This document shows positions 31,875-47,519 of a DNA stretch of 64,000 nt, one piece after another. The stretch covers positions 2,232,001 to 2,296,000 of the forward strand of contig NZ_VFQE01000001.1 in NCBI RefSeq assembly GCF_006717095.1, written 5' to 3'. The notes under the pieces were generated by a model. That model ran no database searches. It was not told where the DNA came from and saw only the letters and a list, made by a program, of their open reading frames with translations. Numbering within the stretch: the first letter of the stretch is position 1; every line of letters begins with the position of its first letter. Source of the stretch: Blastococcus colisei. Lineage in GTDB: Bacteria; Actinomycetota; Actinomycetes; Mycobacteriales; Geodermatophilaceae. A program made the translations under genes and the position numbers.

Positions 31875-32576
31875 TCAGGCCACGCCGAGCAGCGTGTGGG
31901 CGACCGAGCTGTCGCTGCGGAACTCCCGCGTGCTGGACCGGTGCGCGATCACGCCCTTGTCCATGACCGCGATGTCGTCGGCGACGGCGAACGCGAGGTG
32001 CAGGTCCTGCTCGACGACCACCAGGGTGACCCCTTCGGCCTTCATCCGGCCGATCGCCACGCCGATCAGGTCCACGACCGCGGGCGCCAGTCCGTCCGAG
32101 GGCTCGTCCATGAGCACCAGGCGTGGATTGGTCAGCAGGGCGCGCGCGATGGCCAGCATCTGCTGTTCGCCGCCCGAGAGCTGGCCGGCAGCGTGCCGCC
32201 GGCGTTCCCCGAGACGGGGGAACAGGTCCAGCACCCGGTCCATGTCCCACGGCCCACGGCCCCGTCCACGCCGGGCGGCCAGGTCCAGGTGCTCGGTCAC
32301 GCTGAGCGGTGCCCAGACCCGCCGTCCTTGCGGCACCAGACCGACACCCGCTCGTGCGATCACGTCCGAACGGCGTCCCGCCAGGTCGACGCCGTCGAGC
32401 CGGACGGTGCCCCGGGAGGGGTGCACCAGCCCCATCAGCGTGTTGATCAGCGTGCTCTTGCCCACGCCGTTGCGGCCGAGGAGCCCGAGCACCTGACCGG
32501 CGGCCACGTCGAGGTCGACGCCCTGCAGCACGGTGCTGCGCTTGTAACCCGACTCCAGGTCGCGGACCTCGAGCAC
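31875..32576 (-). CDS. livF: Branched-chain-type ABC transporter ATP-binding protein, LivF-like
   Basis: 233 residues from GTG 32576, 1 bp after the livG stop. Walker A GRNGVGKST (about 34-42), Q-loop LVPQGRRVW, signature LSGGEQQM (about 133-140), Walker B LVLMDEPSDGLAP, then VEQD at the switch. VPQGRRVWAPLSVTEHLDLA is the LivF subtype. It is the last gene of a five-gene importer operon beside aromatic-acid genes. In that setting Liv-type systems often import aromatic acids such as benzoate or anthranilate derivatives, so branched-chain amino acid transport is less likely. Specificity is inference. Confidence 0.9.
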   Translation of the reverse strand: MLEVRDLESGYKRSTVLQGVDLDVAAGQVLGLLGRNGVGKSTLINTLMGLVHPSRGTVRLDGVDLAGRRSDVIARAGVGLVPQGRRVWAPLSVTEHLDLAARRGRGRGPWDMDRVLDLFPRLGERRRHAAGQLSGGEQQMLAIARALLTNPRLVLMDEPSDGLAPAVVDLIGVAIGRMKAEGVTLVVVEQDLHLAFAVADDIAVMDKGVIAHRSSTREFRSDSSVAHTLLGVA

Positions 32577-32577
32577 G

Positions 32578-33369
32578 TCAGCTCACCTCCAGATGGGCGG
32601 CGCCGCTGCCGTCGAGGAACAGCGACTCCCGGCCGGTGCCGAGGTAGGCCTCCTGCACGGCCTCGCTCGTGCGGACCTCGTCCGGCGTCCCGGTCAGCAG
32701 CACCCGGCCCAGGTGCAGCACCGTCACCGAGGTCGCCAGCGCGAACACCACGTCGAGGTCGTGCTCCACGATGACGAGCGTCACCGACTCCGGCAACGAC
32801 TTGAGCAGGCCGACGAGCTGGGCGCTCTCGGCCGGTGACATGCCGGCGGCCGGCTCGTCGAGGAGCAGCAGCCGGGGCTCGCAGGCCAGCGCCACGGCGA
32901 CCTCCACCTGGCGCCGCTCTCCGTGCGAGAGGGCGGCGACGGGCGTCGCGGCACGGCCGGCCAGCCCGACGTCGGAGAGGAGCGCCTCCACCCGTTCCCG
33001 CGCGGCCGCCTGCCGGCGCGGCACGAGGGAGTGCCGGCTGCTGTGGCGGCGTTGCGCGGCCAGCAGGACGTTCTGCTGCACCGTCTGGGTGAGGAAGAGG
33101 CTCGAGTGCTGCAGGGTCTGGCTGATCCCACGCCGGGCCCGCTGGTGCTCCGACAGCCGGGAGATGTCCGAGCCGGCCAGGCTGATCGTGCCGGCCGACA
33201 ACGGCAGCGCGCCGGTGATCAGCTTGAACAGGGTGCTCTTGCCGGCTCCGTTGGGCCCGATGAGCGCATGGCGCGCGCCGGCGGGAACCTCCAGGCGGAC
33301 GTCGTCGACCGCCTTGAGCGCGCCGAAGTGCCGGGCCACGCCGGACAGGGACAGCAGCGGTGGACTCAT
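32578..33369 (-). CDS. livG: Branched-chain-type ABC transporter ATP-binding protein, LivG-like
   Basis: 263 residues from ATG 33369. Walker A GPNGAGKST (about 38-46), Q-loop TLQHSSLFLTQTVQQNVLLA, signature LSHGERRQVEVAVALA (a HGE variant usual in LivG), Walker B LLLLDEPAAGMSP, switch VIVEHDLDVVFALA. The start overlaps the livM stop by four bases, indicating translational coupling. The C-terminal extension ESLFLDGSGAAHLEVS is short. Partner of LivF in a heterodimeric ATPase. Confidence 0.92.
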   Translation of the reverse strand: MSPPLLSLSGVARHFGALKAVDDVRLEVPAGARHALIGPNGAGKSTLFKLITGALPLSAGTISLAGSDISRLSEHQRARRGISQTLQHSSLFLTQTVQQNVLLAAQRRHSSRHSLVPRRQAAARERVEALLSDVGLAGRAATPVAALSHGERRQVEVAVALACEPRLLLLDEPAAGMSPAESAQLVGLLKSLPESVTLVIVEHDLDVVFALATSVTVLHLGRVLLTGTPDEVRTSEAVQEAYLGTGRESLFLDGSGAAHLEVS

Positions 33370-34406
33370 GCCGGACCTCCTGGGAAGCGCTGCCGGCGGC
33401 CGAACAGGCCGCTGAGGCCGGCGAAGCCGCGGGGGAGCACGTAGACGGCGACGACGAACACCACGCCCAGCAGCAGCGGGCCGTGCCCGTCCAGCTGGGG
33501 GCCGAAGGTGTCCCGGACCAGCACGACGACCGCCGCGCCGAGGACCGGGCCCCACAGCGTCCCGGCGCCGCCGAGGATCACGGCCAGGAGGATCAGGGCG
33601 CTGGTGGTGAAGCCGGTGTCGCTCGGGTTGACGATGCGGACCAGGCCGGCCAGCAGGCCGCCGGCCAGGCCGGCGAAGCCGCCGGCGATCGTGAACGCGA
33701 CGAACTTGTAGCGGAAGGGGGAGTAGCCCAGCGACCGCATTCGCGGCTCGTTGTCCCGGATGCCGCGGAGCACGCCGCCGAAGGGCGAGTGCGCCACCAG
33801 CCACAGACCGAGGAAGCCCAGCAGCGCGACGGCCAGGATGTACCAGTAGACGTATCCGGCCAGGGTCAGGGGCTCGCCCCCGACGCGCACGCTGGGGATC
33901 CCGAACAGGCCGTTGGAGCCGCCGGTCACGTCGGAGAGGCTCTGCGCGAGCTGGTGCACCAGCTCCCCGATGGCCAGCGTCAGCATCAGGAAGTAGACGC
34001 CGCCGCTGCGCACCGCCAGCCACCCGGTCGCCGCCGCGGCCACGGCGCCGGCCACCGCGGCCAGCAGCACGGGGACGGGCGCCTCGCTGGTCCAGTGGAT
34101 CGACACCAGGCCTGCGGTGTAGGCGCCGACGCCAAAGTACGCGGCGTGCCCCAGCGACGGAAGTCCGGTGATCCCGACGAGCAGGTCGAGGCTGACGGCG
34201 AACAGCGCGAAGACCAGGATCCGGGACAGCGTGTTGGCCTCGAACGGCGCCAGGAACAGCGGGACGGCAGCGAGGAGCACCAGCAGTACCAGCACCGCCA
34301 CTGCGGGCAGGGAGCGGCCGAGCCGCCGGGACGGCGGAGGCGCGTCGTGCGTCGCCGTGGCCCCGGCGACGGACGGTTCGGTCGGCCTGTCGGCGTGCAC
34401 GGTCAT
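33366..34406 (-). CDS. livM: Branched-chain-type ABC transporter permease, LivM-like
   Basis: 346 residues, about nine or ten hydrophobic helices after a 30-residue soluble head. LivM markers: GLPSLGHAAYFGVGAYTAG, GVYFLMLTLAIGELVHQ, GGVLRGIRDNEPRMRSLGYSPFRYKFVAFTIAGGFAGLAGGL and GGAGTLWGPVLGAAVVV. The EAA-like loop is the IRDNE segment. Its start shares one base with the livH stop and its stop overlaps the livG start, so the importer genes are tightly coupled. Confidence 0.93.
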   Translation of the reverse strand: MTVHADRPTEPSVAGATATHDAPPPSRRLGRSLPAVAVLVLLVLLAAVPLFLAPFEANTLSRILVFALFAVSLDLLVGITGLPSLGHAAYFGVGAYTAGLVSIHWTSEAPVPVLLAAVAGAVAAAATGWLAVRSGGVYFLMLTLAIGELVHQLAQSLSDVTGGSNGLFGIPSVRVGGEPLTLAGYVYWYILAVALLGFLGLWLVAHSPFGGVLRGIRDNEPRMRSLGYSPFRYKFVAFTIAGGFAGLAGGLLAGLVRIVNPSDTGFTTSALILLAVILGGAGTLWGPVLGAAVVVLVRDTFGPQLDGHGPLLLGVVFVVAVYVLPRGFAGLSGLFGRRQRFPGGPA

Positions 34407-35287
34407 CAGTGGGCCACCTTCCCGGCGAAGAGTCCGCGCGGCCGGACGATGAGCACCAGTGCGAGCGTGCCGAACAGGATGAAGGACGCGATCTCGGGGA
34501 ACAATGCCCGGCCCAGCGACTCCACCTGGCCGATCACCAGGGCGCCCACCAGCGCGCCGCGGACCGACCCGAGCCCGCCGATGACGATGACGACGAGGGC
34601 CAGGATCAGGATCGTCTTGTCCAGGCCCGGACGTGCGCCGTAGACGGGGGCGGCCAGCACACCGGCCACGGAGGCCAGGAGAGAGCCCACTCCCAGTACC
34701 GCGAACTTCACCTTCCGGTTGTCGATGCCGAGGGCCGACACCATCTCCCGGTCGGCGACGCTGGCGCGCACGAGCGCCCCGAGGCTGGTCTTCTCCACCA
34801 CCAGCCAGACGACGAGGGCCAGCAGCAGACCCACTGCGATGAGCATGAGCCGGTAGGTGGGGTAGGAGCTGCCGGCGACGTCGACGCTGCCGGCCAGGCC
34901 GGGAGGCTCCGGCACGGAGAAGACGTCGTTGCCGTAGATGATCGACAGCGCCTCGGCCACGATCAGCGAGATGCCGAGCGTGAGCAGCGCCTGGTCGAGG
35001 ATCGGCCGCCGGGCCAGGGGTTCGGTCATGCCGGACAGCGCTCCGCCGGCCAGCAGCCCGATGAGTGCGGCGACCCCGAGAGCGGTGAGGAACCCGCCCC
35101 AGGACTCACCGGCGACGAACGTCACGGCGAGGTAGGAGCCGACCAGGAAGAACGCGCCGTGGGCGAGGTTGAGCACGTCCATCATCCCGAAGACGATCGA
35201 CAGCCCCACGGCGAGGATGAACAGCAACGAGCCGATGGCGAACCCGTTGAGAATGCTGACCAGGTTCGCGTCGAACCAGCCGGCCAT
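34406..35287 (-). CDS. livH: Branched-chain-type ABC transporter permease, LivH-like
   Basis: 293 residues from ATG 35287 with GGAGAGGAG just upstream. Eight or so hydrophobic helices. LivH signatures GLSIVFGMMDVLNLAHGAFFLVGSYLAV near residue 24, LVRASVADREMVSALGIDNRKVK near 183 and IVIGGLGSVRGALVGALVIGQVESLG near 232. A longer in-frame start exists but lacks a ribosome site. It pairs with LivM as the heteromeric channel. A stem-loop separates it from the binding-protein gene upstream. Confidence 0.93.
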   Translation of the reverse strand: MAGWFDANLVSILNGFAIGSLLFILAVGLSIVFGMMDVLNLAHGAFFLVGSYLAVTFVAGESWGGFLTALGVAALIGLLAGGALSGMTEPLARRPILDQALLTLGISLIVAEALSIIYGNDVFSVPEPPGLAGSVDVAGSSYPTYRLMLIAVGLLLALVVWLVVEKTSLGALVRASVADREMVSALGIDNRKVKFAVLGVGSLLASVAGVLAAPVYGARPGLDKTILILALVVIVIGGLGSVRGALVGALVIGQVESLGRALFPEIASFILFGTLALVLIVRPRGLFAGKVAH

Positions 35288-35320
35288 CGAGGTCTCCTCT
35301 CCGCGCGGATCGGCGGCCAC

Positions 35321-35346
35321 GGCCGGGAGGGGAGAACCTCCGGGCC
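35321..35346 (-). terminator. Intergenic stem-loop between livK-like and livH genes
   Basis: Arms GGCCGGGAGG (35321-35330) and CCTCCGGGCC (35337-35346) pair in 9 of 10 positions around GGAGAA. It lies 33 bp after the binding-protein stop. Stem-loops here usually stabilise the upstream mRNA so that binding protein is made in excess over permease. A partial terminator is the alternative reading. Confidence 0.55.
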
Positions 35347-35378
35347 GTGACCGCCGTCGCGGGACTAGCGCGACTGGG

Positions 35379-36602
35379 TTACGGCTGCGGCATGACGCCG
35401 AGGTCGGTCACCACGCTGTTGAGCAGCGTGCCGCCCTCGTCGACGACCTCCCGCAGGTAGATGCTCTGCTCCGGCGTCTGATTCGTGAAGCTCCACGGGC
35501 CCCGGGGGCTGTCCTCGATCTCGCCCAGGCCGTCCAGCGCCTCGGTGATCGCCGGACCGGAGAGATCCTCGGCCTCCTCCAGTGCCGCATCCAGCACGTT
35601 CGCGGCGTCGTAGGCCTGCACCGCGTACGTCGTCGGCAGCTCGTCGTAGGCCGCCACATAGGCCTCCACGAACTCGGCGTTGGCCTCGTTGTCGATCTCG
35701 GTGGAGTAGTGCAGCGTCGTCCGGACTCCGACGGCCGACTCGCCCTGAGCGTCGAGGACGCTGCCCTCGGTCAGGAAGCCGGAGCCGTAGAGCGGGATGC
35801 TGTCCTTGAGGCCGAACTGGTCGTACTGCTGCACGAAGCTCACCGCCTCGCCGCCGGCGTAGAAGACGAAGGTCGCCTCGGCACCCGATGACTGGATGCC
35901 GGACAGGAAAGGCTGGAAGTCCTGCGTCGACCCGAAGGGCGTCAGGGCCTGACCGGCAACCGTGCCGCCGGCGGCCTCGTAGGCGGTGGTGAAGCCCTCG
36001 ACGACCTCCTGGCCGGCGGCGTAGTCCGGGGCCATGACGTAGACCGGACCGATGCCTTCCTGGGCCAGGTGCTCACCCATCGCCGCTGCGATCTGGGCGT
36101 TGGTGAACGATGACCGCCAGACGTAGGGGCTGCCGGCGTCCTTGGTGATCGCCTCGGCACCGGCGTTGGCGACGATCAACGGGACCTCGGCCTCGGTGAC
36201 CGCGTCGGCCACCCCGAGCGCCGTGGCGGAGTTCACGATGCCGACGAGCGCGTCGACGTCGCCCTCGGTCAGGAGCCGCTGGACCGCCGGGACGCCGGTG
36301 TCCGGACTCTCGCCCTCGTCGGCGACGACCGTCTCGACCTCGTACCCACCGAGCATGCCGTCGTTCTGCTCCAGGTAGAGGTCCCAGCCCTGCTGCATGT
36401 CCTCGCCCAGGGGCGTGTAGACGCCGGCCTGGGGGATGACCAGGCCCACCGTGACGGTCTCCTCGCCCTCGGCGCCGCCGCCCGCGCCGGCGTCCTCGTC
36501 ACCTCCCAGGCTTCCGCCGCCGCAGGCGGCCAGGGCCATGGCGAGGACGCCCACGCCGCAGGTGGTGGACAGCCGTCGCCGGGAGAGGTGGGCCAGTGCC
36601 AT
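35379..36602 (-). CDS. livK: Branched-chain-type ABC transporter substrate-binding lipoprotein
   Basis: 407 residues from ATG 36602. Lipoprotein signal with RRRLSTTCGVGVLAMALAACGGG; the lipobox Cys is at about residue 27. A Gly/Glu-rich linker follows and then the type I periplasmic binding fold (VTVGLVIPQAGVYTPLGEDMQQGWDLYLEQ, VDALVGIVNSATALGVADAV, YVMAPDYAAGQEVVEGFTTAYEAAGG). It is a Leu/Ile/Val-type receptor that in aromatic clusters often binds aromatic acids. First gene of the livKHMGF operon; a consensus TTGACA lies about 75 bp upstream. Confidence 0.92.
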   Translation of the reverse strand: MALAHLSRRRLSTTCGVGVLAMALAACGGGSLGGDEDAGAGGGAEGEETVTVGLVIPQAGVYTPLGEDMQQGWDLYLEQNDGMLGGYEVETVVADEGESPDTGVPAVQRLLTEGDVDALVGIVNSATALGVADAVTEAEVPLIVANAGAEAITKDAGSPYVWRSSFTNAQIAAAMGEHLAQEGIGPVYVMAPDYAAGQEVVEGFTTAYEAAGGTVAGQALTPFGSTQDFQPFLSGIQSSGAEATFVFYAGGEAVSFVQQYDQFGLKDSIPLYGSGFLTEGSVLDAQGESAVGVRTTLHYSTEIDNEANAEFVEAYVAAYDELPTTYAVQAYDAANVLDAALEEAEDLSGPAITEALDGLGEIEDSPRGPWSFTNQTPEQSIYLREVVDEGGTLLNSVVTDLGVMPQP

Positions 36603-36664
36603 GGAGTCTCCGTAGTCTCGGGACGTGCTACAGCTGCACGTCGGTTCTCGGTGAGCCTGTAGAA

Positions 36665-36768
36665 CGCCACGCGGTGTGTCAAGCGCCACAAATGCAACCG
36701 TGACCGGACCGGTACCTGCGCGACCGTCGGGGGTGTCGCCATATCGATCCGGTACACCGCTTGTGGCG
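36665..36768. promoter_or_regulatory. Divergent control region with TTGACA and three GTGGCG motifs
   Basis: In the 197 bp between the liv operon and the PaaX gene, the minus strand carries a perfect TTGACA (36677-36682). It is flanked by GTGGCG on both sides (plus-strand CGCCAC at 36665-36670 and 36684-36689), with the outer one extended to TTGTGGCG. A further TTGTGGCG sits on the plus strand at 36761-36768, making an inverted pair over 85 bp. These are candidate sites for the adjacent PaaX-type regulator. No clean -10 at 17-18 bp was found for the TTGACA. Confidence 0.45.
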
Positions 36769-36799
36769 GGGTGTAACGATGTGCGGCGTGGAGGCTGTC

Positions 36800-37633
36800 A
36801 TGGGACCCGTCGTGACCAGACGGCAGGAGCTCGGCGCGGCGAGTGCGCGCAGCCTGTTGCTCACCGTCCTGGGCGAGTTCGTGCTGCCCGATGGCCGGCC
36901 CGTGTGGACCTCCACGCTCATCGACCTGCTGGCCGATCTCGACGTCGCGGAGAAGGCGGCCCGGCAGGCCATCATGCGTACGGCCGACTCGGGCTGGATC
37001 CGGTCGAGCCGGATCGGCCGCGAGACCCGCTGGTCGCTGACCGACGCGGGTACCGAGCTGCTGCGCGAAGGCACCGAGCGGATCTACCACTTCGCCGCCG
37101 AGAACCAGTCCTGGGACGGCCGGTGGCTGGTGCTCACCGTCGGCGTCCCGGAGAACAACAGGGCGCTCCGGCAGCGGTTGCGGACCCAGCTCGGCTGGGC
37201 CGGGCTCGGGTCGCCCTCGCCGGGCGTCTGGGTGACTCCCCGGACGCACCGGGAGAACCGGGCGCGCAAGGTCCTCGAGGACCTGCAGCTCAGCGAGGGC
37301 AGCTGGTCGTTCGTCTCCACCGCGGGGGCGATCGGGGACGAGCGCTCGCTGGCTCGGGCGGCGTGGGACCTCGACGACGTCGAGCGCCGGTACGAGGACT
37401 TCCTGGACCTGGTCAGTCACCGCCGGCCACGCACCGACCGGCAGGCGCTGATCGCGCAGGTCCGGCTGGTCCAGGAGTGGCGACGCTTCCCGCTGCTCGA
37501 TCCCGGGCTGCCCCGGGAGCTGCTCCCGCCCCGCTGGACCGGCAACCGGGCCGCCGAGGTCTTCCGCGAGCGGCATGCCGGCTGGGCGCCGCGCGCCCGC
37601 GCCGCGTGGGAACAGCTGGCTCGTCAGGACTGA
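36800..37633 (+). CDS. PaaX family transcriptional regulator (copy 1)
   Basis: 277 residues from ATG 36800, five bases after GGAGG. N-terminal PaaX winged-helix domain (ARSLLLTVLGEFVLPDGRPVWTSTLIDLLADLDVAEKAARQAIMRTADSGWI), a central Cas2-like domain (WDGRWLVLTVGVPENNRALRQRLRTQLGWAGLGSPSPGVWVTPR) and a C-terminal domain (LVQEWRRFPLLDPGLPRELLPPRWTG). PaaX proteins repress aryl-CoA pathways and are released by the CoA thioester. It is divergent from the liv importer and probably controls it. The second PaaX at 42473 is only distantly similar. Confidence 0.92.
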   Translation: MGPVVTRRQELGAASARSLLLTVLGEFVLPDGRPVWTSTLIDLLADLDVAEKAARQAIMRTADSGWIRSSRIGRETRWSLTDAGTELLREGTERIYHFAAENQSWDGRWLVLTVGVPENNRALRQRLRTQLGWAGLGSPSPGVWVTPRTHRENRARKVLEDLQLSEGSWSFVSTAGAIGDERSLARAAWDLDDVERRYEDFLDLVSHRRPRTDRQALIAQVRLVQEWRRFPLLDPGLPRELLPPRWTGNRAAEVFRERHAGWAPRARAAWEQLARQD

Positions 37634-37662: not shown

Positions 37663-38220
37663 TCAGGCCGGGACGCCGTGCTTCTCCAGCCATGCCCGGC
37701 CGGCGTCGGTGATGACCCGGGCGTCGCGCTCCGCCTGCAGGAGCGGGGGGTCCTGGCGGTAGAGGCTGGCGACCAGGTGGCTGTCGGGGGTCAGCTGCCG
37801 GGCGATCTGGTGCGCCTCGAGCTTGTGCAACCGCCCGCCGGGCGACTCGGCGAAGCGTCGCAGCAGGGCGGCCTGCGCCTCTGTGGGGTCCGGTCGCTGC
37901 GTCGTCCCCCTGGCCGCGCCGGGCGTCGGCTCCTCGTCCAGGAGAGCCGTGATGGCCCGGGAGAAGGTCTGCACGAGGTCCCGGATCCGGTCGTCGCGCG
38001 AGGGGGCGCCGGGCGCGTCGCCCGAGCCCTGCCAGGTGCGCTGCGGGTGGCGCCGGAGGTACTCCTGCTCCAGTTCGAGCATCCGCTCGGTGTGGGTGCG
38101 GAACTGCTCGGCGGTCCCGTGCAGGAAGACCCAGTGCCGCATGGCGTGCGCGTGCACGCCCTGCCGCTCCAGCTCCTCGTCGGACAGTTCGCGGGCCGGA
38201 ATGCCCTGTCGGTCGCTCAT
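37663..38220 (-). CDS. DUF6158 family protein
   Basis: 185 residues from ATG 38220. The conserved N-terminal block ARELSDEELERQGVHAHAMRHWVFLHGTAEQFRTHTERMLELEQEYLRRHPQR marks the actinobacterial DUF6158 family, known only as a helical protein of unknown role. The C-terminal part (EAHQIARQLTPDSHLVASLY) is less conserved. It follows the monooxygenase/reductase gene by 84 bp and converges with PaaX copy 1. No membrane segments or catalytic motif are seen. It may belong to the aminobenzoate operon, but a link is unproven. Confidence 0.6.
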   Translation of the reverse strand: MSDRQGIPARELSDEELERQGVHAHAMRHWVFLHGTAEQFRTHTERMLELEQEYLRRHPQRTWQGSGDAPGAPSRDDRIRDLVQTFSRAITALLDEEPTPGAARGTTQRPDPTEAQAALLRRFAESPGGRLHKLEAHQIARQLTPDSHLVASLYRQDPPLLQAERDARVITDAGRAWLEKHGVPA

Positions 38221-40692: not shown

Positions 40693-40722
40693 AGGATATG
40701 CCGCCTTTGCGACGGGCGTCAA
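40693..40722 (-). promoter_or_regulatory. Promoter of the monooxygenase/reductase gene with embedded operator
   Basis: On the minus strand TTGACG (40722-40717) and TATCCT (40698-40693) are 18 bp apart and predict a start about 27 bp before the ATG at 40659. The -35 is the left arm of TTGACGCCCGTCGC (40722-40709), which matches 12 of 14 positions of the perfect palindrome at 44727-44740. Confidence 0.7.
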
Positions 40723-40741: not shown

Positions 40742-42349
40742 TCAGCGCAGCCGGTACCGCTGGAGCTTGCCGGTGCTCGTCCGGGGGAGCTCCTCGACGA
40801 ACTCCACCACCCGCGGGCGCTTGTAGGGCGCGATCGCCTGCTTGACGAAGTCCACGAGCTCGGCGGCCGGGACGTCCCGGGTGCGGTCGGGGTTCAGCAC
40901 GACGAAGGCCTTGACGACCATCCCGCGCTCGGCGTCGGGTGCGCCGACGACGGCGCAGTCGACGACCTCGGGGTGGCCGAGCAGCGCCTGCTCGACCTCC
41001 GGCCCGGCGATGTTGTACCCCGCGGAGACGATCATGTCGTCGGTCCGCGCCTGGTAGACGAAGTAGCCGTCGGCGTCGCGGACGTAGGTGTCTCCCGTGA
41101 CGTTCCAGCCGTGGCGGACGTAGATCTCCTGGCGGTCGCCGCCCAGGTACCGGCAGCCCGTGGGCCCGCGGACGGCGAGGTGGCCGGGCGTCCCGTCGGG
41201 CACGGGCCGGCCCTCGTCGTCGAGGACGGCGGCGGTGTAGCCGGGCACCGCGCGGCCGGTCGAGCCGGGCCGGATGTCGTCGTCGGCGGCCGCGATGAAG
41301 ATGTGCAGCATTTCGGTCGCGCCGATCCCGTCGATGACCTTCAGCCCGGTCGCCTCGTGGACGGCGCGCCACACCGACTCGGGCAGCGCCTCGCCGGCCG
41401 ACACCGCGCGCCGGACGCCGGCCAGCTTGTCGGCGTGCCCGCCGGCGAGGATCGCCTTGTAGGCCGTCGGCGCGGTGAACAGGACGGTCACCGCGTGCTC
41501 GGCCACGGCGTCGGCGAGCACGTCGGGGGTCGCGCGCTCGAGCAGGAGCACGCTGGCACCGACCCGGAGCGGGAAGACCACCAGACCGCCGAGGCCGAAG
41601 GTGAACCCGATCGGCGGGGAGCCGGTGAAGACGTCGTCCGGCTCGGGGCGCAGCACGTGGGCTGCGAAGGTGTCGGCGATGGCGAGCACGTCCCGGTGGA
41701 AGTGCATGGTCGCCTTCGGTCGCCCGGTGGTTCCGGAGGTGAAGGCCAGCAGCGCGACGTCGTCGGCGGCGGTGTCGACGTCGGGGAACTCCGCCGGCTT
41801 GCCCGCGGCCCGGGCGCACAGGTCGTCGGGCCCCGTGGAACCGAAGACCACCGTCGTCAGGCCGGGGATCGCGGCGCGCTCGAGAGCCTCGGTCAACCGG
41901 TGGTCGCACAGGGCGACGGCGGGGCGGCACATCTCGCCCATCGTCGCGAGCTCGCCGGCCCGCAGCAGCGGCATCGTGGTCACCGCGACGCCGCCGGCCT
42001 TCAGCACACCCAGCCAGCAGGCGACCAGCCACGGCTCGTTGTAGCCGCGCAGCAGCACGCGGTTGCCCGGGACCAGGCCCAGGTCGTCGACGAGGACGGC
42101 GGCGATCCGGTTGGCCTGCGCCCGCAGGTCGCCGTAGCTCCACACGGCCCCGTCGGACGACCGCAGGCAGGGCCGGTCGGGACCCAGGCGGTCGATGGTC
42201 GCGTCCAGCAGGGCGGTCGCGCAGTTCAGCCGCTCGCCGTAGTCCAGCGGTCCCAGGTCCAGCACCGGCCACTGGTCGAGCGGGGGCAGGTTGTCCCGGC
42301 TGAACGTGTCCCGGTGGGCGGAGGGGCTCAGCGCGGCAATCTGCGTCAT
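40742..42349 (-). CDS. Aryl-CoA ligase, 2-aminobenzoate/benzoate-CoA ligase type
   Basis: 535 residues, ANL superfamily. ATP loop LLAFTSGTTGRPKATMHFHRD near residue 202, FTFGLGGLVVFPLRVGAS near 250, DGIGATEMLHIFIAAADDD near 335, hinge VYQARTDDMIVSAGYNIAGPEVE, and SAGEALPESVW. The catalytic C-terminal lysine lies in RTSTGKLQRYRLR. The NIAGPEVE and GIGATEMLHIF segments resemble 2-aminobenzoate-CoA ligases more than the box-type ligase at 17808. It should form the CoA ester used by the fused monooxygenase 82 bp downstream. Its own promoter shares the cluster motif. Confidence 0.88.
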   Translation of the reverse strand: MTQIAALSPSAHRDTFSRDNLPPLDQWPVLDLGPLDYGERLNCATALLDATIDRLGPDRPCLRSSDGAVWSYGDLRAQANRIAAVLVDDLGLVPGNRVLLRGYNEPWLVACWLGVLKAGGVAVTTMPLLRAGELATMGEMCRPAVALCDHRLTEALERAAIPGLTTVVFGSTGPDDLCARAAGKPAEFPDVDTAADDVALLAFTSGTTGRPKATMHFHRDVLAIADTFAAHVLRPEPDDVFTGSPPIGFTFGLGGLVVFPLRVGASVLLLERATPDVLADAVAEHAVTVLFTAPTAYKAILAGGHADKLAGVRRAVSAGEALPESVWRAVHEATGLKVIDGIGATEMLHIFIAAADDDIRPGSTGRAVPGYTAAVLDDEGRPVPDGTPGHLAVRGPTGCRYLGGDRQEIYVRHGWNVTGDTYVRDADGYFVYQARTDDMIVSAGYNIAGPEVEQALLGHPEVVDCAVVGAPDAERGMVVKAFVVLNPDRTRDVPAAELVDFVKQAIAPYKRPRVVEFVEELPRTSTGKLQRYRLR

Positions 42350-42390
42350 CGAGGTACCTCTCCCGGGGTGCGGCGAGCGCGGCGTCCCGA

Positions 42391-42420
42391 ACGCTATGGC
42401 GTCTACCTAACGAGAGTCAA
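42391..42420 (-). promoter_or_regulatory. Promoter of the aryl-CoA ligase gene with embedded operator-like motif
   Basis: On the minus strand TTGACT (42420-42415) and TAGCGT (42396-42391) are 18 bp apart, predicting a start about 35 bp before the GTG/ATG at 42349. The 14-mer TTGACTCTCGTTAG (42420-42407) shares TTGAC-N-C-N-CGT with the sites at 40709-40722 and 44727-44740. Confidence 0.6.
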
Positions 42421-42472: not shown

Positions 42473-43315
42473 GTGACCGTCGTCGAGGAGGCAACCGGCC
42501 AGGCCGGTGCGCTGCAGCCACGGCAGCTCATCGTCACGCTGTACGGGCTCTACGCCCGCGAGCACGGCAGCTGGCTGTCCATCGCCGCCGTCGTCCGGTT
42601 GATGGCCGACCTCGGGGTCGAGGAGTCGGCCGTGCGCTCCTCGATCTCCCGGCTCAAGAGGCGCGGGCTGCTGGATTCCCGGCGGGTGGACGGGGTCGCC
42701 GGCTACGCGCTCACCGAGGTGGCCCAGGAGATCCTGGCCGACGGCGATGCGCGCATCTTCGGCCGGCGCCGAGCGGACGAGGACGACGGCTGGCTGCTCG
42801 TCGTGTTCTCCGTGCCCGAGTCCGAACGGGACCGCCGGCACCAGCTCCGGTCCCAGCTGACCCGGCTCGGCTTCGGCACGGTGGCCCCGGGCGTCTGGGT
42901 GGCCCCCGGCCACCTGGCGGACGAGGCCGCCGAGATTCTCGGCCGCCGGGGCCTGGCCGGGTACGTCGAGCTCTTCCGCGGCGCCCAGCCGGCCCTGGGG
43001 GAGGCCCGTGACAACGTGGCCCGCTGGTGGGACGTGGACCACCTGCACGCCCGTTACGCGGAGTTCCTCGACCGTCAGGAGCCGGTGCGCGAACGGCTGT
43101 CGGCCGACGGCGGCGTCGATCGGGAGCAGGCGTTCGCCGACTACGTGCGGCTGCTCACCGACTGGCGGCGGCTGCCCTACGCCGACCCCGGGCTGCCGCT
43201 GCACCTGTTGCCCGCCGACTGGAACGGCGCCCGGGCCGCGGACCTCTTCGGCGACCTCCGGGGCCGGCTGGCCGGGCCGGCGCACGACCACGCCCGCCGG
43301 CTGATCGGCATCTGA
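42473..43315 (+). CDS. PaaX family transcriptional regulator (copy 2)
   Basis: 280 residues from GTG 42473. PaaX domains in order: winged helix (QLIVTLYGLYAREHGSWLSIAAVVRLMADLGVEESAVRSSISRLKRRGLLDSRRVDGVAGYALTEVAQEIL), Cas2-like (WLLVVFSVPESERDRRHQLRSQLTRLGFGTVAPGVWVAPGH) and C-terminal (YVRLLTDWRRLPYADPGLPLHLLPADWNG). A -10 hexamer TATCGT (42461-42466) lies seven bases before the GTG, and no ribosome site is visible, so the mRNA may be leaderless. It is divergent from the aryl-CoA ligase and is the best candidate to read the aryl-CoA made by this cluster. A hairpin follows its stop. Confidence 0.92.
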   Translation: MTVVEEATGQAGALQPRQLIVTLYGLYAREHGSWLSIAAVVRLMADLGVEESAVRSSISRLKRRGLLDSRRVDGVAGYALTEVAQEILADGDARIFGRRRADEDDGWLLVVFSVPESERDRRHQLRSQLTRLGFGTVAPGVWVAPGHLADEAAEILGRRGLAGYVELFRGAQPALGEARDNVARWWDVDHLHARYAEFLDRQEPVRERLSADGGVDREQAFADYVRLLTDWRRLPYADPGLPLHLLPADWNGARAADLFGDLRGRLAGPAHDHARRLIGI

Positions 43316-43322
43316 TCGAGGC

Positions 43323-43338
43323 GCTTCCGCACGGAAGC
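43323..43338 (+). terminator. Hairpin after PaaX copy 2
   Basis: GCTTCCG (43323-43329) and CGGAAGC (43332-43338) pair perfectly around CA, starting 7 bp after the PaaX stop. The short stem has no U-tract, but its place directly after the stop fits a terminator. The remaining 43339-43466 gap shows nothing further. Confidence 0.5.
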
Positions 43339-43466
43339 CGGCGGGTCGTCCTCGGGGTCGGCAGGGTCCGGAGCCACCCTGATGCGTACGGCGGTCGTCA
43401 TGCGCCCTCGATGACCGCAGGCATCCGCATGAGGGCGGTCGCGCGCGGCGAGATGCCCGGGGTCAC

Positions 43467-43949
43467 TCAGGCGGGGAGGGCCGCGATGCCCTGCACCTCG
43501 ACCAGCGCCTCGACGTCCCAGAGGCGGGCGATGCCGATGCCGGCCATCGCCGGGTAGTCGGAGCCGACGAGCCGTCGCCAGACGGCGCCGATCTCCCGGG
43601 CGTGGGCGCGGTAGTCCTCGATGTCGACGGCGTAGACGGTCAGCGTGGCCAGGTGCTCCGGTTCGCCGCCGGCTGCGCGCAGGGCGGTCAGCAGGTTGCC
43701 GAGAGCCCGCTCGAACTGGGCGACGACGCCGTCGCCCACGATCCGCCCCTCCGCGTCGAGAGCGGTCTGCCCGGCCAGGAACACGATCCGGTTGCTGTCG
43801 GCGAGCACCGCGTGCGAGAAGCCGGCCGGCCGGGCCAGTTCCGGGGGGTTGATCCGCTCGAAGCCACTCGATGTTCCCGATTCGCTCCCGCGGGGCCCTC
43901 CGCTCCTCGCTCGTTCCTCGCTGCGATGCTCACGCCCCTGTCCGCTCAT
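43467..43949 (-). CDS. Rid (YjgF/YER057c/UK114) family protein with repeat-derived N-terminus
   Basis: 160 residues from ATG 43949. The Rid fold begins near residue 30 (FERINPPELARPAGFSHAVLADSNRIVFLAGQTALDAEG) and ends with VEALVEVQGIAALPA. Rid proteins form trimers and often hydrolyse enamines or imines. In the aminobenzoyl-CoA pathway the ring product is an enamine, so such a helper makes sense. The Arg usually found in PAR..V of archetypal RidA is replaced (YPAMAGIGIARL), so imine hydrolase activity is uncertain. The first 29 residues (Arg, Glu, Ser and Gly-rich) are encoded by what looks like an inserted repeat. The start overlaps the SDR stop (ATGA). Confidence 0.85.
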   Translation of the reverse strand: MSGQGREHRSEERARSGGPRGSESGTSSGFERINPPELARPAGFSHAVLADSNRIVFLAGQTALDAEGRIVGDGVVAQFERALGNLLTALRAAGGEPEHLATLTVYAVDIEDYRAHAREIGAVWRRLVGSDYPAMAGIGIARLWDVEALVEVQGIAALPA

Positions 43950-44704
43950 GACTGCACAGCTCCTCCGTCGACGTTGAGCCCCTGGCCGGTGATCGCCCCG
44001 CTGTGCACGCACATCAGCACGGCGTCGGCGACCTCCTCCGGATCGATCAGCCGCCCGATCGGCTGGCGGCGGGCCAGCGTCTCGCGCGCCTCGGCCTCGG
44101 ACCGCCCGGTGGTGGCGCTGATCGTTGCGACGGTGCCGGCGGTCATCGGGGTGTCCACGTACCCCGGGCACACGGCGTTCACCGTGACCCCCTTCGTGGC
44201 GACCTCCGCGGCCGCCGACCGGACCAGCCCGAGCAGCCCGTGCTTGCTCGCGGTGTAGGCGCTGACGTACGGGTCGCCGCGCTTGGCGGCGATCGACGCC
44301 ACGGCGACCACCCGTCCCCAGCGCTGCTCGACCATGCCGGGCAGGGCACGGCGCAGCAGCCGGAACGGCGCGGTGAGATTGAGGTCCAGCATGCGGGCCC
44401 AGTCCTCGTCGCTCGTGCGTGCCAGCGGTGCGGACGTGCCGGCGCCGGCGTTGAGCACGAGCACCTCGACCGGGCCGCCCCACTCCGCCTCGACCCGGGA
44501 GACGACCGTGTCCGCGGCGGCGGGGTCGGTCAGGTCGGCCGGCACGACGAGCGAGGGGGCGGGCAGCCGGGCGGCCAGCGCGGTGAGCTCGTCGGCGCTG
44601 CGGGCGGTGAGCGCGACGGAGTGGCCCTCGGCGGACAGGCGCTGCGCGACCGCGGCGCCGATGCCCCGTCCTGCCCCGGTGACGAGGCAGCGACGGGCAG
44701 GCAC
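43946..44704 (-). CDS. SDR family 3-hydroxyacyl-CoA dehydrogenase-like protein
   Basis: 252 residues from GTG 44704. NAD loop GAGRGIGAAV near residue 10, LNAGAG near 85, and Ser/Tyr/Lys in ASIAAKRGDPYVSAYTASKHG near 140-155. The C-terminal half has NAVCPGYVDTPMTAG and QPIGRLIDPEEVADAVLMCVHSGAITGQGLNVDGG. An ATG at 44743 would place the palindrome inside the gene, so GTG 44704 is preferred; it also sits at the predicted transcription start. The protein resembles BadH-type alicyclic hydroxyacyl-CoA dehydrogenases, which suits a partner of the BadI-like hydrolase across the promoter. Rid is co-translated downstream. Confidence 0.88.
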   Translation of the reverse strand: MPARRCLVTGAGRGIGAAVAQRLSAEGHSVALTARSADELTALAARLPAPSLVVPADLTDPAAADTVVSRVEAEWGGPVEVLVLNAGAGTSAPLARTSDEDWARMLDLNLTAPFRLLRRALPGMVEQRWGRVVAVASIAAKRGDPYVSAYTASKHGLLGLVRSAAAEVATKGVTVNAVCPGYVDTPMTAGTVATISATTGRSEAEARETLARRQPIGRLIDPEEVADAVLMCVHSGAITGQGLNVDGGAVQS

Positions 44705-44726
44705 CGCCGGAGCTTGCCACTTCCCC

Positions 44727-44740
44727 TTGACGCCCGTCAA
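44727..44740. promoter_or_regulatory. Perfect palindrome TTGACG-CC-CGTCAA in a divergent promoter
   Basis: A 6-2-6 perfect palindrome lies between the divergent SDR/Rid operon and the ring-hydrolase gene. Each arm can serve as a -35 (TTGACG). On the plus strand TACCCC (44751-44756) is 18 bp away; on the minus strand CAAGCT (44716-44711) is 18 bp away and predicts a leaderless start at GTG 44704. Related sites occur at 40709-40722 and 42407-42420, so this is the best consensus for the cluster regulator. Confidence 0.7.
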
Positions 44741-44831
44741 CATGGCGACATACCCCGGAAGGGCGTCGGCCCGACGCCGTCGCAGGTCGTCCGCGAGCGG
44801 CCCGGGGACGTCGAGGAGAAGGGGCGCACGG

Positions 44832-45629
44832 ATGAAGATCGAGGAGTTCACCGACATCCGGTACGAGGTGGAGGAGGACAACCACGCGGTCATCACGATC
44901 GACCGGCCCGACCGGATGAACTCCTTCCGTGGCCGCACGGTCGACGAGCTGATCTCGGCGTTCAAGTACGCCTGGGCCGACCGCCGCGTCGCCGCCGTCG
45001 TCCTCACCGCGACCGGCGAGCGTGCGTTCTGCACCGGCGGCGACGTCAAGGAACGCGCGGAGACCGGTGGCTACGGCGAGACGGAGTGGGGCACCTTCGA
45101 GATCGAGCGGCTGCACCGGATCATCCGGGACATCCCCAAGCCGGTGATCGCCGCCGTCAACGGCATCGCGATCGGCGGCGGGCACGTGCTGCACGTGCTG
45201 TGCGACCTCACCGTCGCCGCCGAGAACGCCACGTTCGCGCAGGCGGGGCCCCGCGTCGGCTCCTTCGACGCCGGCTTCGGGTCGGCCTACCTGGCCCGGG
45301 TCGTGGGGGAGAAGCGGGCGCGGCAGATCTGGTTCCTGCTCGACCGCTACGACGCCGTCACGGCCGAGCGCTGGGGGCTGGTCAACGAGGTCGTGCCCAA
45401 GGAGCAGCTGCTCGAGAAGGCGCGGGAGTGGGCCCGGAAGATCGGCTCCTACTCGCCGACCGCCATCAAGTTCCTCAAGCACTCGTTCAACGCCGACAGC
45501 GACCACATGAGCGGCATCTCGCACCTGGCCTTCGACGGGCTCGCCCACTACGCCACGAGCGAGGAAGGCATGGAGGGCGCGCGGGCCTTCGCCGAGAAGC
45601 GGCCGCCGGACTTCTCGAAGTACCGCTGA
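44832..45629 (+). CDS. BadI/MenB-like crotonase (ring-cleaving oxocyclohexane-carbonyl-CoA hydrolase candidate)
   Basis: 265 residues from ATG 44832. Crotonase fold with features shared by MenB and BadI: ITIDRPDRMNSFRGRTVDELISAFKYA, GERAFCTGGDVKER (oxyanion), DIPKPVIAAVNGIAIGGGHVLHVLCDLTVAAENATFAQAGPRVGSFDAGFGSAYLARVVGEKRARQIWFL, and C-terminal EKRPPDFSKYR. BadI opens 2-oxocyclohexanecarboxyl-CoA to pimeloyl-CoA. MenB itself would normally sit with menaquinone genes, which are absent here. I infer hydrolytic ring opening in the aminobenzoyl-CoA route. It is divergent from the SDR and Rid genes over a shared palindrome. Confidence 0.85.
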   Translation: MKIEEFTDIRYEVEEDNHAVITIDRPDRMNSFRGRTVDELISAFKYAWADRRVAAVVLTATGERAFCTGGDVKERAETGGYGETEWGTFEIERLHRIIRDIPKPVIAAVNGIAIGGGHVLHVLCDLTVAAENATFAQAGPRVGSFDAGFGSAYLARVVGEKRARQIWFLLDRYDAVTAERWGLVNEVVPKEQLLEKAREWARKIGSYSPTAIKFLKHSFNADSDHMSGISHLAFDGLAHYATSEEGMEGARAFAEKRPPDFSKYR

Positions 45630-45636
45630 CGCCGGC

Positions 45637-46089
45637 TCAGGCGGCGGGGCGGGTGCGGACGAGGTTCATCGCGAGCAACCGCAGGACGACGTCGCCGCCG
45701 GAGTCGACGAGCTCGACCCTGGTCCGCAGCAACCCGCGATCGGGCTTGCTGCGGGACAGGCGGGCCTCCTCGACGGTGGTGCGCAGCGACAGCTCGTCGC
45801 CCGGACGGACCGGCTTGACCCAGCGCAGCTCGTCCACCCCGGGGGAGCCGAGGCTCGAGGCGGGGGAGAGGTACTCCTGGGCGAGCAGCCGCATCATCAG
45901 CGCGCAGGTGTGCCAGCCGCTCGCGATGAGGCCGCCGTACGGACCGGACGACGCCGCCTCCCGGTCCACGTGGAAGGGCTGGGGGTCGAACCGGCGCCCG
46001 AAGTCCACCAGTTCCGCCTCGTCCACCCGGATCGAGCCGTGCTCGGCGGTCGTCCCCACGACGTAGTCCTCGAACCAACGCTCGCTCAT
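45637..46089 (-). CDS. MaoC-like hot-dog dehydratase
   Basis: 150 residues from ATG 46089. The hydratase-2 motif appears as DPQPFHVDREAASSGPYGGLIASGWHT (about 36-62), with Asp and His as in R-specific enoyl-CoA hydratases. The strand segment ELRWVKPVRPGDELSLRTTV near residue 88 is also typical of MaoC proteins. The 3' end meets the ring hydrolase gene with 7 bp between stops. It probably hydrates an enoyl-CoA intermediate after ring opening. The precise step is not determined. Confidence 0.88.
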   Translation of the reverse strand: MSERWFEDYVVGTTAEHGSIRVDEAELVDFGRRFDPQPFHVDREAASSGPYGGLIASGWHTCALMMRLLAQEYLSPASSLGSPGVDELRWVKPVRPGDELSLRTTVEEARLSRSKPDRGLLRTRVELVDSGGDVVLRLLAMNLVRTRPAA

Positions 46090-46201
46090 GCGGGCACCGT
46101 ACGGGCGTCGGCCGTGGTGCCTGCCGACACCACCGACGAGCTACAGCATGCTTGACTGGTAGCAGGAACGTGTAGAACACCGGTCGGGGAGGATCTTCCG
46201 C

Positions 46202-47065
46202 ATGCTCGACGGACACGTGCTGGTGGACGCGCACGTGCACGTGCCCCACCTGTCCTCGCTGGCGCCCGCCTGGGTGGACTGGGCGCGGCAGTTCGGCCGG
46301 CCCGGCGTGCTGGAGGAGATCTGGCACGCCGACGGGACGCCCGATCCGGCCGCGCTGGACCGGCTGTTCGCCGACGAGGGCGTCGACGCCGCGCTCCTCT
46401 TCTGCGAGTACAGCCCCAAGGCCACCGGATACCAGCGGTTCGACGACCTGCTGCCGCTCGTCGACGGGAACCCGCGCCGTTTCCGTCCCGTCGCCAACGT
46501 CAATCCGCACCTGCACTTCCCGATCGCCCGGGAGGTGGAGAGACAGTTGGACCTCGGTGCGGCGGCACTGAAGATCCATCCCGTCCACGGCGGGTTCCGG
46601 GCCGACGACGCGGCGATGTATCCCGCCTACGCCGTCCTCGTCGAGCGCGGGGTGCCCCTCGTCGTGCACTGCGGGACCAGCAGCTTCCCGGGGTCGACGA
46701 ACGCCTACGCGGACCCGCAGCTGCTCGACGCCGTTCTCCGTGACTTCCCCGACCTGCACGTGGTGCTCGCCCACGGTGGCCGCGGGTGGTGGTACGACGC
46801 CGCGGCGTTCCTCGCCGTCTCCCGTCCGAACGTGTGGATCGAGCTGTCCGGTCTGCCGCCCAAGCGGCTGCCGGAGTACTACGCCCGCTTCGACCTGGCG
46901 CGCCTCGCCCGGAAGTGGATCTACGGGACCGACTGGCCGGGAGTCCCCGGTCAAGCCGCCAACGCCCGGGCCGTCGCCTCGCTGGGCCTGCCCGACGACG
47001 TCGTCTCGCTCGTGCTCGGCGGGAACGCCAGGCGGGTCTACTCGGGCGTCCTGCCGCCCGACTGA
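46202..47065 (+). CDS. Amidohydrolase-2 family metal-dependent hydrolase (ACMSD-like)
   Basis: 287 residues from ATG 46202, ten bases after GGAGG. TIM-barrel amidohydrolase with an N-terminal HVH metal motif (VDAHVHVPH), ALKIHPVHGGFRADD near residue 121, VPLVVHCGTSSFPGS near 151, VLAHGGRGWW near 183 and YGTDWPGVPG near 241 with the last Asp. Relatives decarboxylate or hydrolyse aromatic-derived acids. A TTGACT (46152-46157) with TAGAAC (46173-46178) 15 bp away is a possible weak promoter, in a region with CTACAG/CTGGTAG half-sites. Its exact reaction in this cluster is open. Confidence 0.85.
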   Translation: MLDGHVLVDAHVHVPHLSSLAPAWVDWARQFGRPGVLEEIWHADGTPDPAALDRLFADEGVDAALLFCEYSPKATGYQRFDDLLPLVDGNPRRFRPVANVNPHLHFPIAREVERQLDLGAAALKIHPVHGGFRADDAAMYPAYAVLVERGVPLVVHCGTSSFPGSTNAYADPQLLDAVLRDFPDLHVVLAHGGRGWWYDAAAFLAVSRPNVWIELSGLPPKRLPEYYARFDLARLARKWIYGTDWPGVPGQAANARAVASLGLPDDVVSLVLGGNARRVYSGVLPPD

Positions 47066-47108
47066 GGCGCAGGAAGGACGCTCGGGCGAGTCCACCGTCG
47101 CATCGGCG

Positions 47109-47519
47109 TCAGGCGCGGCGGGGCAGGACCATGCACGTGAGGCGGGCGCTCGCGGTGAGCCGACCGGAGTCATCGGTGACCTCGACGAGGAAGGAGGCCA
47201 CCGGCTGACCGTCACCGACCGGCGTGCAGACCGCGGTGACGTGCCCGGAGGTGACGGCCCGCACGTAGCTGGCACTGAGCTCGATGCCCACCACACTCGC
47301 CTCCGGCCCGGCCCGCAGAGCTGCGGCGTACGAGCCGACCGTCTCGACCAGGCTGCACGTGGCCCCGCCGTGCAGGAGGCCGTAGGGCTGGGTGTTGCCC
47401 TCGACGGGCATGCGGGCGACGAGGCGGTCGAGGTCCCAGTCGACGATCTCGATGCCGAGCTTCTCGTCCAGAGCGCTGAAGGTGTCCGAGGGCAGCCAGT
47501 CCGGCGCTTCGGTGGGCAT
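47109..47519 (-). CDS. PaaI-type hot-dog thioesterase, 5' region invaded by IS
   Basis: 136 residues from ATG 47519. Hot-dog thioesterase with the PaaI-type segments PYGLLHGGATCSLVETVGSYAA (HGG motif, about 45-66) and VVGIELSASYVRAVTSGHVTAVCTPVG. It can release CoA from dead-end acyl-CoA. The IS982 terminal repeat begins 7 bp before the start codon, so the native ribosome site and promoter are gone or replaced; GGGTGGG from the IS end and flank is the only candidate site. It converges with the amidohydrolase gene. It may be silent or driven by the IS. Confidence 0.88.
   Translation of the reverse strand: MPTEAPDWLPSDTFSALDEKLGIEIVDWDLDRLVARMPVEGNTQPYGLLHGGATCSLVETVGSYAAALRAGPEASVVGIELSASYVRAVTSGHVTAVCTPVGDGQPVASFLVEVTDDSGRLTASARLTCMVLPRRA

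Follow-up and report, generated by a model that had tools for sequence, protein, structure and literature searches.

Anthranilate is a product of tryptophan and indole breakdown. Its degradation through CoA thioesters has been described in Azoarcus (Aromatoleum) evansii, where the 2-aminobenzoyl-CoA monooxygenase/reductase is a 170-kDa homodimer whose product is an enamine (PMC4539516), and where a review, in its part on this 2-aminobenzoate pathway, gives the later steps only as β-oxidation. The actinobacterium Arthrobacter sp. Rue61a also grows on anthranilate by a CoA-thioester route, which its genome paper gives as its sole route. Its anthranilate-CoA ligase activity was measured and two ligases were assayed, only anthranilate-grown cells showed a C7H8O4 acid as its CoA ester, in the authors' view perhaps cyclohexanedione-carboxyl-CoA, and its linear plasmid carries two PaaX-related regulators (PMC3534580). 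Here, these systems are compared with a 64,000-nucleotide stretch of the Blastococcus colisei genome (contig NZ_VFQE01000001.1, positions 2,232,001 to 2,296,000; hereafter, the window). Positions 31875 to 47519 of the window hold genes for a predicted anthranilate-CoA ligase, a fused flavin monooxygenase/old yellow enzyme (OYE) reductase (ACMR), a Rid-family protein, a short-chain dehydrogenase/reductase (SDR), a crotonase resembling both BadI and MenB, a Liv-type importer, and two PaaX-type regulators. These genes very probably form a PaaX-regulated aerobic anthranilate catabolic cluster that works via CoA thioesters in a Blastococcus-type actinobacterium, the substrates within the host being predicted from homology and gene context.

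The first two steps are the ordinary pathway already shown in an actinobacterium. A preliminary description of the window had thought an actinobacterial version to be of interest, but given the growth of Rue61a on anthranilate, such a version is not new. That description had proposed to look for the gene set in other actinobacteria, and plasmids of Rhodococcus and Tsukamurella carry similar clusters. The Rue61a plasmid pAL1 (NC_009453) has in common with the window PaaX regulators, Rid, an anthranilate-CoA ligase, and a fused monooxygenase/reductase, as well as one TGACGGTCGTCA site preceding a PaaX gene, but carries genes for a FAH-family hydrolase, a cupin, and an acyl-CoA thioesterase in place of the SDR and BadI/MenB-like hydrolase. 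The pAL1 pathway is fed by quinaldine, whereas isatin and kynurenine are the candidate sources for the Blastococcus cluster. A pathway-annotation study left out tryptophan breakdown via this enzyme for lack of knowledge (PMC9007349), and the tie between a hydrolase clade and ACMR described below names a testable enzyme for ring opening.

The fused enzyme and its partner ligase

Two samples were used for comparison. The locus set consisted of 86 loci that surround a fused enzyme gene, namely 80 retained from the 307 relatives listed, five plasmid records, and the window; it covers close relatives only, and many of its loci are broken off at contig ends. The family set consisted of 112 genomes of the host's family, 26 of which carry the fused gene (23 full-length matches and three partial matches running into the OYE domain). 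At least eight loci (L027, L028, L030, L031, L044, L074, L080, and L089) come from genomes also in the family set, and tests on the two sets are thus not independent. Simple gene calling misses genes, among them the window SDR and the L011 monooxygenase; the module genes were rechecked by tblastn. Counts of accessory genes are lower bounds, as most loci stop 10 kb from the monooxygenase.

The gene set named in the preliminary description is confirmed: each member is an open frame with a matching family match in NCBIfam or Pfam. The predicted ligase shares 58% identity with the assayed ligase of pAL1, as against 38% for the box benzoate-CoA ligase of the window. The adjoining fused protein has 784 residues, with the FAD hydroxylase domain at its N terminus and the OYE domain at its C terminus, and is 68% identical to its pAL1 partner and approximately 50 to 52% identical to five plasmid-borne proteobacterial and deinococcal proteins. 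A hydroxylase-OYE fusion of approximately 85 kDa per subunit, adjoined by a relative of an assayed anthranilate-CoA ligase, is what would be expected of a 2-aminobenzoyl-CoA monooxygenase/reductase. More often than by chance, the ligase (65 of the 86 loci), Rid (69), and PaaX (61) are found around ACMR. The anthranilate-CoA reading of the preliminary description is supported by the identity to the Rue61a enzymes, by the Rid, SDR, and ligase genes that accompany the fused enzyme not only in actinobacteria but also in proteobacteria and Deinococcus, by the linked genes of the isatin hydrolase-like type and of the kynurenine pathway, and by the way in which gentisate dioxygenase homologs split fused from single-domain enzymes.

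In the proposed pathway, anthranilate would be imported by the Liv transporter, or made within the cell either from isatin, by the isatin hydrolase-like protein and a thiamine diphosphate (ThDP) enzyme, or from tryptophan via kynurenine. The ligase would make 2-aminobenzoyl-CoA, and the enamine known as the product of the Azoarcus enzyme would be hydrolyzed by Rid to a 2-oxo (β-keto) acyl-CoA. The SDR would reduce the C5 ketone, before or after the Rid step, and the BadI/MenB-like hydrolase would open the ring between C1 and C2 in a retro-Claisen reaction, giving 4-oxo- or 4-hydroxypimeloyl-CoA for entry into β-oxidation. The second PaaX protein (PaaX2) would repress the ligase, monooxygenase, and SDR/hydrolase promoters via TTGACKNYCGTCA sites. 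The order of the steps after the monooxygenase, the ring-opening chemistry, and the binding of PaaX2 are what we infer from the genes and sites.

A different role is suggested by the database name of the fused protein, which matches NF006101 (salicylyl-CoA 5-hydroxylase/oxidoreductase) at 1241 bits, over a cut-off of 1078. The cluster would then degrade salicylate, with the fused enzyme feeding gentisate as a salicylyl-CoA 5-hydroxylase; we regard this as highly improbable. The salicylyl-CoA/gentisate (sdg-type) pathway resembles the window in its PaaX regulator and in the kinship of its flavin hydroxylase domain, and differs in its single-domain hydroxylase without an OYE domain, its gentisate dioxygenase homolog, and its FAH-family hydrolase. 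The preliminary description had argued from the lack of a gentisate dioxygenase. This is correct for positions 31875 to 47519, where a salicylyl-CoA cluster would be expected to have one, but not for the genome, which has a homolog at C1:1739567, some 530 kb away (248 bits against a curated cut-off of 442), and a weak second match at C1:1841955, both outside the window. The homolog belongs to a cluster of the same general type as the salicylyl-CoA pathway (L003 10720-18994; C1:1738719-1746993), together with a single-domain hydroxylase paralog that is 46% identical to the N-terminal part of the fused enzyme, a DHB-AMP-ligase-like gene, an ADP-forming acyl-CoA synthetase-like gene, a FAH-family hydrolase, and a PaaX gene of its own, and its layout resembles that of the Streptomyces sdg salicylate cluster. 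This separate cluster makes the anthranilate case stronger, since the genome keeps two functions apart. The same split runs through the family set, in which the fused gene is found in 26 genomes, the single-domain gene in 13, and a gentisate dioxygenase homolog (E of 1e-50 or better) in 22: the homolog accompanies the single-domain gene in all 13 genomes and is found in 0 of the 15 that have the fused gene only, four of which are less than 90% complete. No homolog of the family passes the curated cut-off, and a Corynebacterium glutamicum control homolog fails it as well. The single-domain gene lies 0.9 to 7.5 kb from the gentisate homolog in six genomes and 42 kb from it in a seventh, with the two on different contigs in the other six. 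Furthermore, a Rid deaminase and isatin and kynurenine genes would be senseless for salicylate. On the separate cluster and the 13/13 versus 0/15 split, the salicylyl-CoA reading of the fused enzyme was rejected. The salicylyl-CoA 5-hydroxylase/oxidoreductase name stands on 12 of the first 20 plasmid records listed; our results suggest that it misleads, in any case for the actinobacterial members examined here, and likely in many records.

The anthranilate reading is nonetheless weakened by several observations, the NF006101 match among them; others are given below with the genes that they concern. In two relatives (G063 and G064) the gentisate homolog lies between both monooxygenase genes, 4.2 to 4.3 kb from the single-domain gene and 7.1 to 7.2 kb from the fused gene, and its distance to the fused gene is 21 kb in a third (G003). 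Kinship among the 112 genomes makes them non-independent samples. Rue61a cells made benzoyl-CoA, perhaps via its ligases (PMC3534580), and the window ligase may also accept benzoate. In favor of the CoA route, anthranilate 1,2-dioxygenase gave only matches below the cut-off in the genome (best, 127 of 672 bits) and 3-hydroxyanthranilate dioxygenase gave no match there, with no control genome passing the cut-off in either case. In G063, G064, and B. mobilis (G003), approximately 12 kb separate the single-domain gene from the fused one.

Mutually exclusive gene modules after the fused enzyme

Three modules follow ACMR and are never found together in the 86 loci: the BadI/MenB-like hydrolase (13 loci), an enoyl-CoA hydratase-type crotonase (37 loci), and a cupin module (7 loci). 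Acyl-CoA dehydrogenase was called in none of the 13 BadI/MenB-like loci, 28 of the 37 hydratase-type loci (p 1e-6), and 12 of the other loci; the tblastn recheck gave 0/13 versus 29/37. By tblastn, an SDR of at least 50% identity is present in 13/13 BadI/MenB-like, 18/37 hydratase-type, and 5/36 other loci. The five plasmid records from proteobacteria and Deinococcus are unlike the window in that each carries a MarR regulator along with the hydratase and the dehydrogenase; each also has an SDR, and four have Rid within the stretch. We put forward, as a proposal with an even chance of being right, that the steps after ACMR are carried out by three interchangeable modules that exclude one another, with a single type of PaaX operator serving many of them. 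These would be an enoyl-CoA hydratase, usually with an acyl-CoA dehydrogenase; a cupin and an acyl-CoA thioesterase, with a FAH-family hydrolase in six of seven loci; and, in this lineage, Rid, SDR, and a third, dedicated MenB/BadI-type hydrolase clade that would hydrolyze the deaminated ring in a retro-Claisen reaction, yielding 4-oxo- or 4-hydroxypimeloyl-CoA.

The BadI/MenB-like protein is 46 to 53% identical to BadI and MenB crotonases and has their SxD motif, but stands under both family cut-offs (291 of 467.6 bits for BadI, TIGR03210; 311 of 342.7 for MenB, TIGR01929), in a separate clade, and outside any ali/bad or men cluster. That it is the housekeeping MenB was rejected, as the genome has its own MenB at C2:756699, which scores 411.7 bits. 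At 77% identity or more, the protein occurs in 18 of the 112 family genomes, all within the 26 that have the fused enzyme (p 5.5e-15). This threshold was set after the match list was seen, and the count down to 58% identity is given alongside: 18/26 ACMR genomes versus 6/86 others (p 4e-10), the six, all without the fused enzyme, carrying a 58 to 74% homolog. In Pseudonocardia and Virgisporangium loci as well, the gene stays by SDR and Rid. A smaller tree placed the group as one clade apart from MenB and from the badI of aliA/aliB clusters; in a larger tree, it was split by the long-branched MenB of the genome itself. The SxD motif, which we take to hold the catalytic Ser and Asp, is kept in 22/22 aligned rows of MenB, BadI, the BadI/MenB-like group, and homologs, in the form SFDAG in 13/13 BadI/MenB-like rows and SVDPG in three badI rows, and is absent from three sampled enoyl-CoA hydratase-type rows. 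The position that we take to be the C-terminal tyrosine of MenB is not kept throughout the clade. BadI acts on β-ketothioester rings of the kind that Rid would produce, and it is plausible from these sequence comparisons that the BadI/MenB-like hydrolase is a ring-opening variant that replaces the enoyl-CoA hydratase and often also the acyl-CoA dehydrogenase. Among the matches listed, titles and abstract openings revealed no work that we recognized as describing its association with ACMR.

The most likely start of Rid is at 43949, overlapping the SDR stop codon, and gives a protein of 160 residues. Rid accompanies 68 of the 85 loci that have a called ACMR gene, and 73 aligned Rid rows of ACMR loci have no Arg at the position that we take, in numbering and role, to be Arg105 of RidA (58 Met, 7 Thr, and 8 others); Pfam still places them in the Rid family. 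A Rid protein lacking this Arg would fit a substrate that has no free carboxylate next to the imine, and the Rid proteins of ACMR loci perhaps form a distinct Rid group. The SDR had been described as BadH-like, a label that proved not to be specific: the best 25 of 221 NCBIfam matches are to 3-hydroxybutyrate-dehydrogenase, FabG, and similar SDR models, none of them BadH. It is 41 to 48% identical to the SDR adjoining ACMR in the five plasmid records.

Two other explanations of these downstream genes have to be weighed. The ligase, ACMR, and Rid might constitute the anthraniloyl-CoA pathway, with the BadI/MenB-like, MaoC, amidohydrolase, and thioesterase genes belonging to a neighboring alicyclic-acid pathway and not acting on its products. 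Homologs of the hydrolase at 59 to 67% do adjoin genes for SDR, acyl-CoA dehydrogenase, or MaoC in stretches where no ACMR was shown, the six family genomes noted above have a homolog and no ACMR, an annotated badI at 52% accompanies aliA/aliB, and the cluster does not consistently include MaoC, thioesterase, and amidohydrolase. Nevertheless, the group at 77% or more is confined to ACMR genomes (18/18), it keeps its place beside SDR and Rid in other genera and has a promoter site in common with them, and none of the 86 loci combines it with the hydratase or dehydrogenase seen at other ACMR loci. We consider a separate alicyclic pathway unlikely, though these objections apply to the BadI/MenB-like gene and not to the MaoC, amidohydrolase, and thioesterase genes. 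Somewhat more credible, yet still short of an even chance, is that the hydratase-like crotonase and the BadI/MenB-like protein perform the same ring hydrolysis and that their exchange is a non-orthologous replacement leaving the chemistry unchanged. Both are of crotonase fold, and both adjoin SDR and Rid; the missing SxD of the three hydratase-type rows and the distribution of the acyl-CoA dehydrogenase, however, suggest a different chemistry. A further complication for the anthranilate pathway as drawn here is an acyl-CoA dehydrogenase of the window at 11882-13030, near the box genes and 25 kb away, which is 38 to 39% identical to those adjoining ACMR elsewhere and could serve that pathway.

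PaaX regulators and an operator-like site

Both PaaX proteins of the cluster have the PaaX, PaaX_M, and PaaX_C domains and fall under the cut-off of TIGR02277, the phenylacetate PaaX model; PaaX2 is 47 to 48% identical to two PaaX proteins of pAL1. Comparison of the window's own promoters revealed the palindrome TTGAC-N4-GTCAA (operator-like site TTGACKNYCGTCA), and no common site was found by such comparison between the LivJ/PaaX1 region and the ligase promoter. Within the window, five matches with at most one mismatch were obtained against 0.72 expected, and none of 100 shuffles reached five; two of the five are both strands of one site, and one lies inside the LivG gene.

The core of the site was taken from the window alone, making its recurrence in other loci the cleaner test; a degenerate form was refined with those loci themselves. 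Across all loci, 35/65 ligase genes versus 10/748 unrelated genes have the core site upstream, with 9 or 10 of its 10 half-site positions matching. The degenerate form lies upstream of 36/61 ligase, 22/50 crotonase, 23/68 PaaX, 12/39 SDR, and 10/40 acyl-CoA dehydrogenase genes versus 5/1008 others, and its reversed control was found in no upstream region of the loci. Divergent gene pairs share one site, such that gene counts are not site counts. Less favorably, the strict site precedes only 3/85 ACMR, 3/69 Rid, 1/7 cupin, and 0/14 isatin hydrolase-like genes and is missing from 35 of the 86 loci, and genome-wide, the pattern gives 16 matches at 12 places compared to 9 for the reversed control. 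The other genome-wide matches mark no recognizable cluster, two of them lying among β-oxidation-type genes 10 to 13 kb right of the window. The recurrence of the site at these promoters suggests a regulon, and PaaX2 is its presumed binder. MeqR2, the PaaX-type repressor of pAL1, presumably responds to anthraniloyl-CoA and binds TGACGNNCGTCA.

Isatin and kynurenine genes and the surroundings of the cluster

The isatin hydrolase-like gene and the ThDP enzyme gene lie approximately 4 kb outside the cluster. The pair also occurs in 10 of the 85 other loci, lies between the ligase and the monooxygenase in three Blastococcus loci (L026, L027, and L089), and adjoins the fused gene in Deinococcus, where the ThDP protein beside ACMR is 57% identical to that of the window. 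In the family set, the isatin hydrolase-like gene is linked to ACMR but not dedicated to it, because it is found in 21/26 ACMR genomes yet also in 36/86 others (p 6e-4), its frequency without ACMR being a point against the pathway as proposed. The two genes share a contig in 17 of the 21 genomes, less than 2 kb apart in seven and less than 60 kb apart in 15. Isatin hydrolase binds its metal through His69, His73, Asp75, and Gln219 (PMC6117287). In the 14 isatin hydrolase-like sequences, the positions of His69, His73, and Asp75 are all kept and that of Gln219 is invariably Thr, again a point on the other side, because of which isatin is a likely but not secure substrate.

The genome has homologs of tryptophan 2,3-dioxygenase and kynureninase at approximately C1:2333419-2335504, at a distance of 61 kb from the fused gene; both score slightly below their respective cut-offs. 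In Rhodococcus NJ-530 and Ruegeria, a gene annotated as tryptophan 2,3-dioxygenase is approximately 6 kb and 1 kb away from the fused gene, respectively. The isatin and kynurenine-pathway genes are thus likely sources of anthranilate, judging by homology and position. In the isatin branch of auxin/indole catabolism, isatin is converted via isatinate to anthranilate, and in Cupriavidus SHE, a 2-aminobenzoyl-CoA cluster is reported to be vital for anthranilate degradation (PMC9613470, PMC6221969). Compared with iad/indole loci, the window has the isatin hydrolase-like and ThDP genes only, no search having been aimed at iad or iif oxygenase genes. Our results suggest that isatin, an intermediate of auxin and indole breakdown, is tied to the anthranilate-CoA route in this actinobacterial family.

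Four loci (L041, L045, L095, and L100) have the isatin hydrolase-like gene near ACMR with a FAD oxidoreductase-like protein (F27) and a protein of 362 to 371 residues read as an LLM-type flavin oxidoreductase, these being candidate upper indole/indoleacetate genes. A tryptophan synthase beta-like protein, identified by eye, directly adjoins the fused gene in L044, L085-L088, L093, and L096, which are Chloroflexi metagenome-assembled genomes and one Geodermatophilaceae genome.

Table 1. Features of the anthranilate cluster and of the nearby isatin hydrolase-like gene pair, in window positions
Feature	Position	Strand	Basis or remark
LivFGMHJ-type ABC importer, five genes	31875..36602	-	Family matches; candidate anthranilate/aromatic acid uptake, predicted substrate
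PaaX-type regulator 1 (PaaX1)	36800..37633	+	Divergent from LivJ; three PaaX Pfam domains; 36% identical to PaaX2
DUF6158 protein	37663..38220	-	Pfam
Fused flavin monooxygenase/OYE reductase (ACMR)	38305..40659	-	FAD_binding_3 and Oxidored_FMN
Operator-like site TTGACGCCCGTCG, one mismatch	40710..40722	-	Upstream of ACMR
Predicted anthranilate-CoA ligase	40742..42349	-	Identity to assayed pAL1 ligase
Operator-like site TTGACTCTCGTTA	42408..42420	-	Ligase/PaaX2 divergent promoter
PaaX-type regulator 2 (PaaX2)	42473..43315	+	Presumed binder of TTGACKNYCGTCA site
Rid-family protein, candidate enamine deaminase	43467..43949	-	Pfam
SDR reductase, candidate ring-ketone reductase	43946..44707	-	NCBIfam, tblastn
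Palindromic operator-like site TTGACGCCCGTCAA	44727..44740	.	Between SDR and BadI/MenB-like gene
BadI/MenB-like crotonase, separate clade, candidate ring-opening hydrolase	44832..45629	+	
MaoC-type dehydratase, accessory	45637..46089	-	Among loci, seen only in Blastococcus
Amidohydro_2 protein, accessory	46202..47065	+	
Hotdog thioesterase, accessory	47109..47519	-	
Isatin hydrolase-like cyclic amidase	51435..52211	+	Outside 31875-47519; PDB 5nmp, E 7e-89
ThDP enzyme, candidate isatinate decarboxylase	52208..53854	+	Outside 31875-47519; paired with isatin hydrolase-like gene

The MaoC, amidohydrolase, and thioesterase genes look accessory to the cluster, because few of the 13 BadI/MenB-like loci show them (MaoC and thioesterase at least 3, amidohydrolase at least 7, window counted) compared to Rid and SDR (13/13) and the ligase (12/13). 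LivJ and LivF are found in at least 7 of these 13 loci, window included. Liv-type genes also adjoin the fused enzyme in Comamonas, Paracoccus, and Deinococcus, and the DUF6158 protein accompanies them in 7 of the 86 loci. A tRNA-Leu call inside the ligase gene was taken as spurious, and the G+C profile, 0.70 to 0.75 throughout the window, was uninformative.

An IS982-type transposase (47715-48629) separates the cluster from the isatin hydrolase-like gene pair. On one strand at 16744-22840 is an aerobic benzoyl-CoA (box) cluster, with BoxB, BoxC, and benzoate-CoA ligase above their cut-offs and a thioredoxin-reductase-like gene. A second catabolic-looking cluster, at 59599-64000 and in L106, encodes an OYE, a fused pyruvate dehydrogenase-type E1, and another Liv-type transporter, and continues with β-oxidation-type genes and two operator-like matches.

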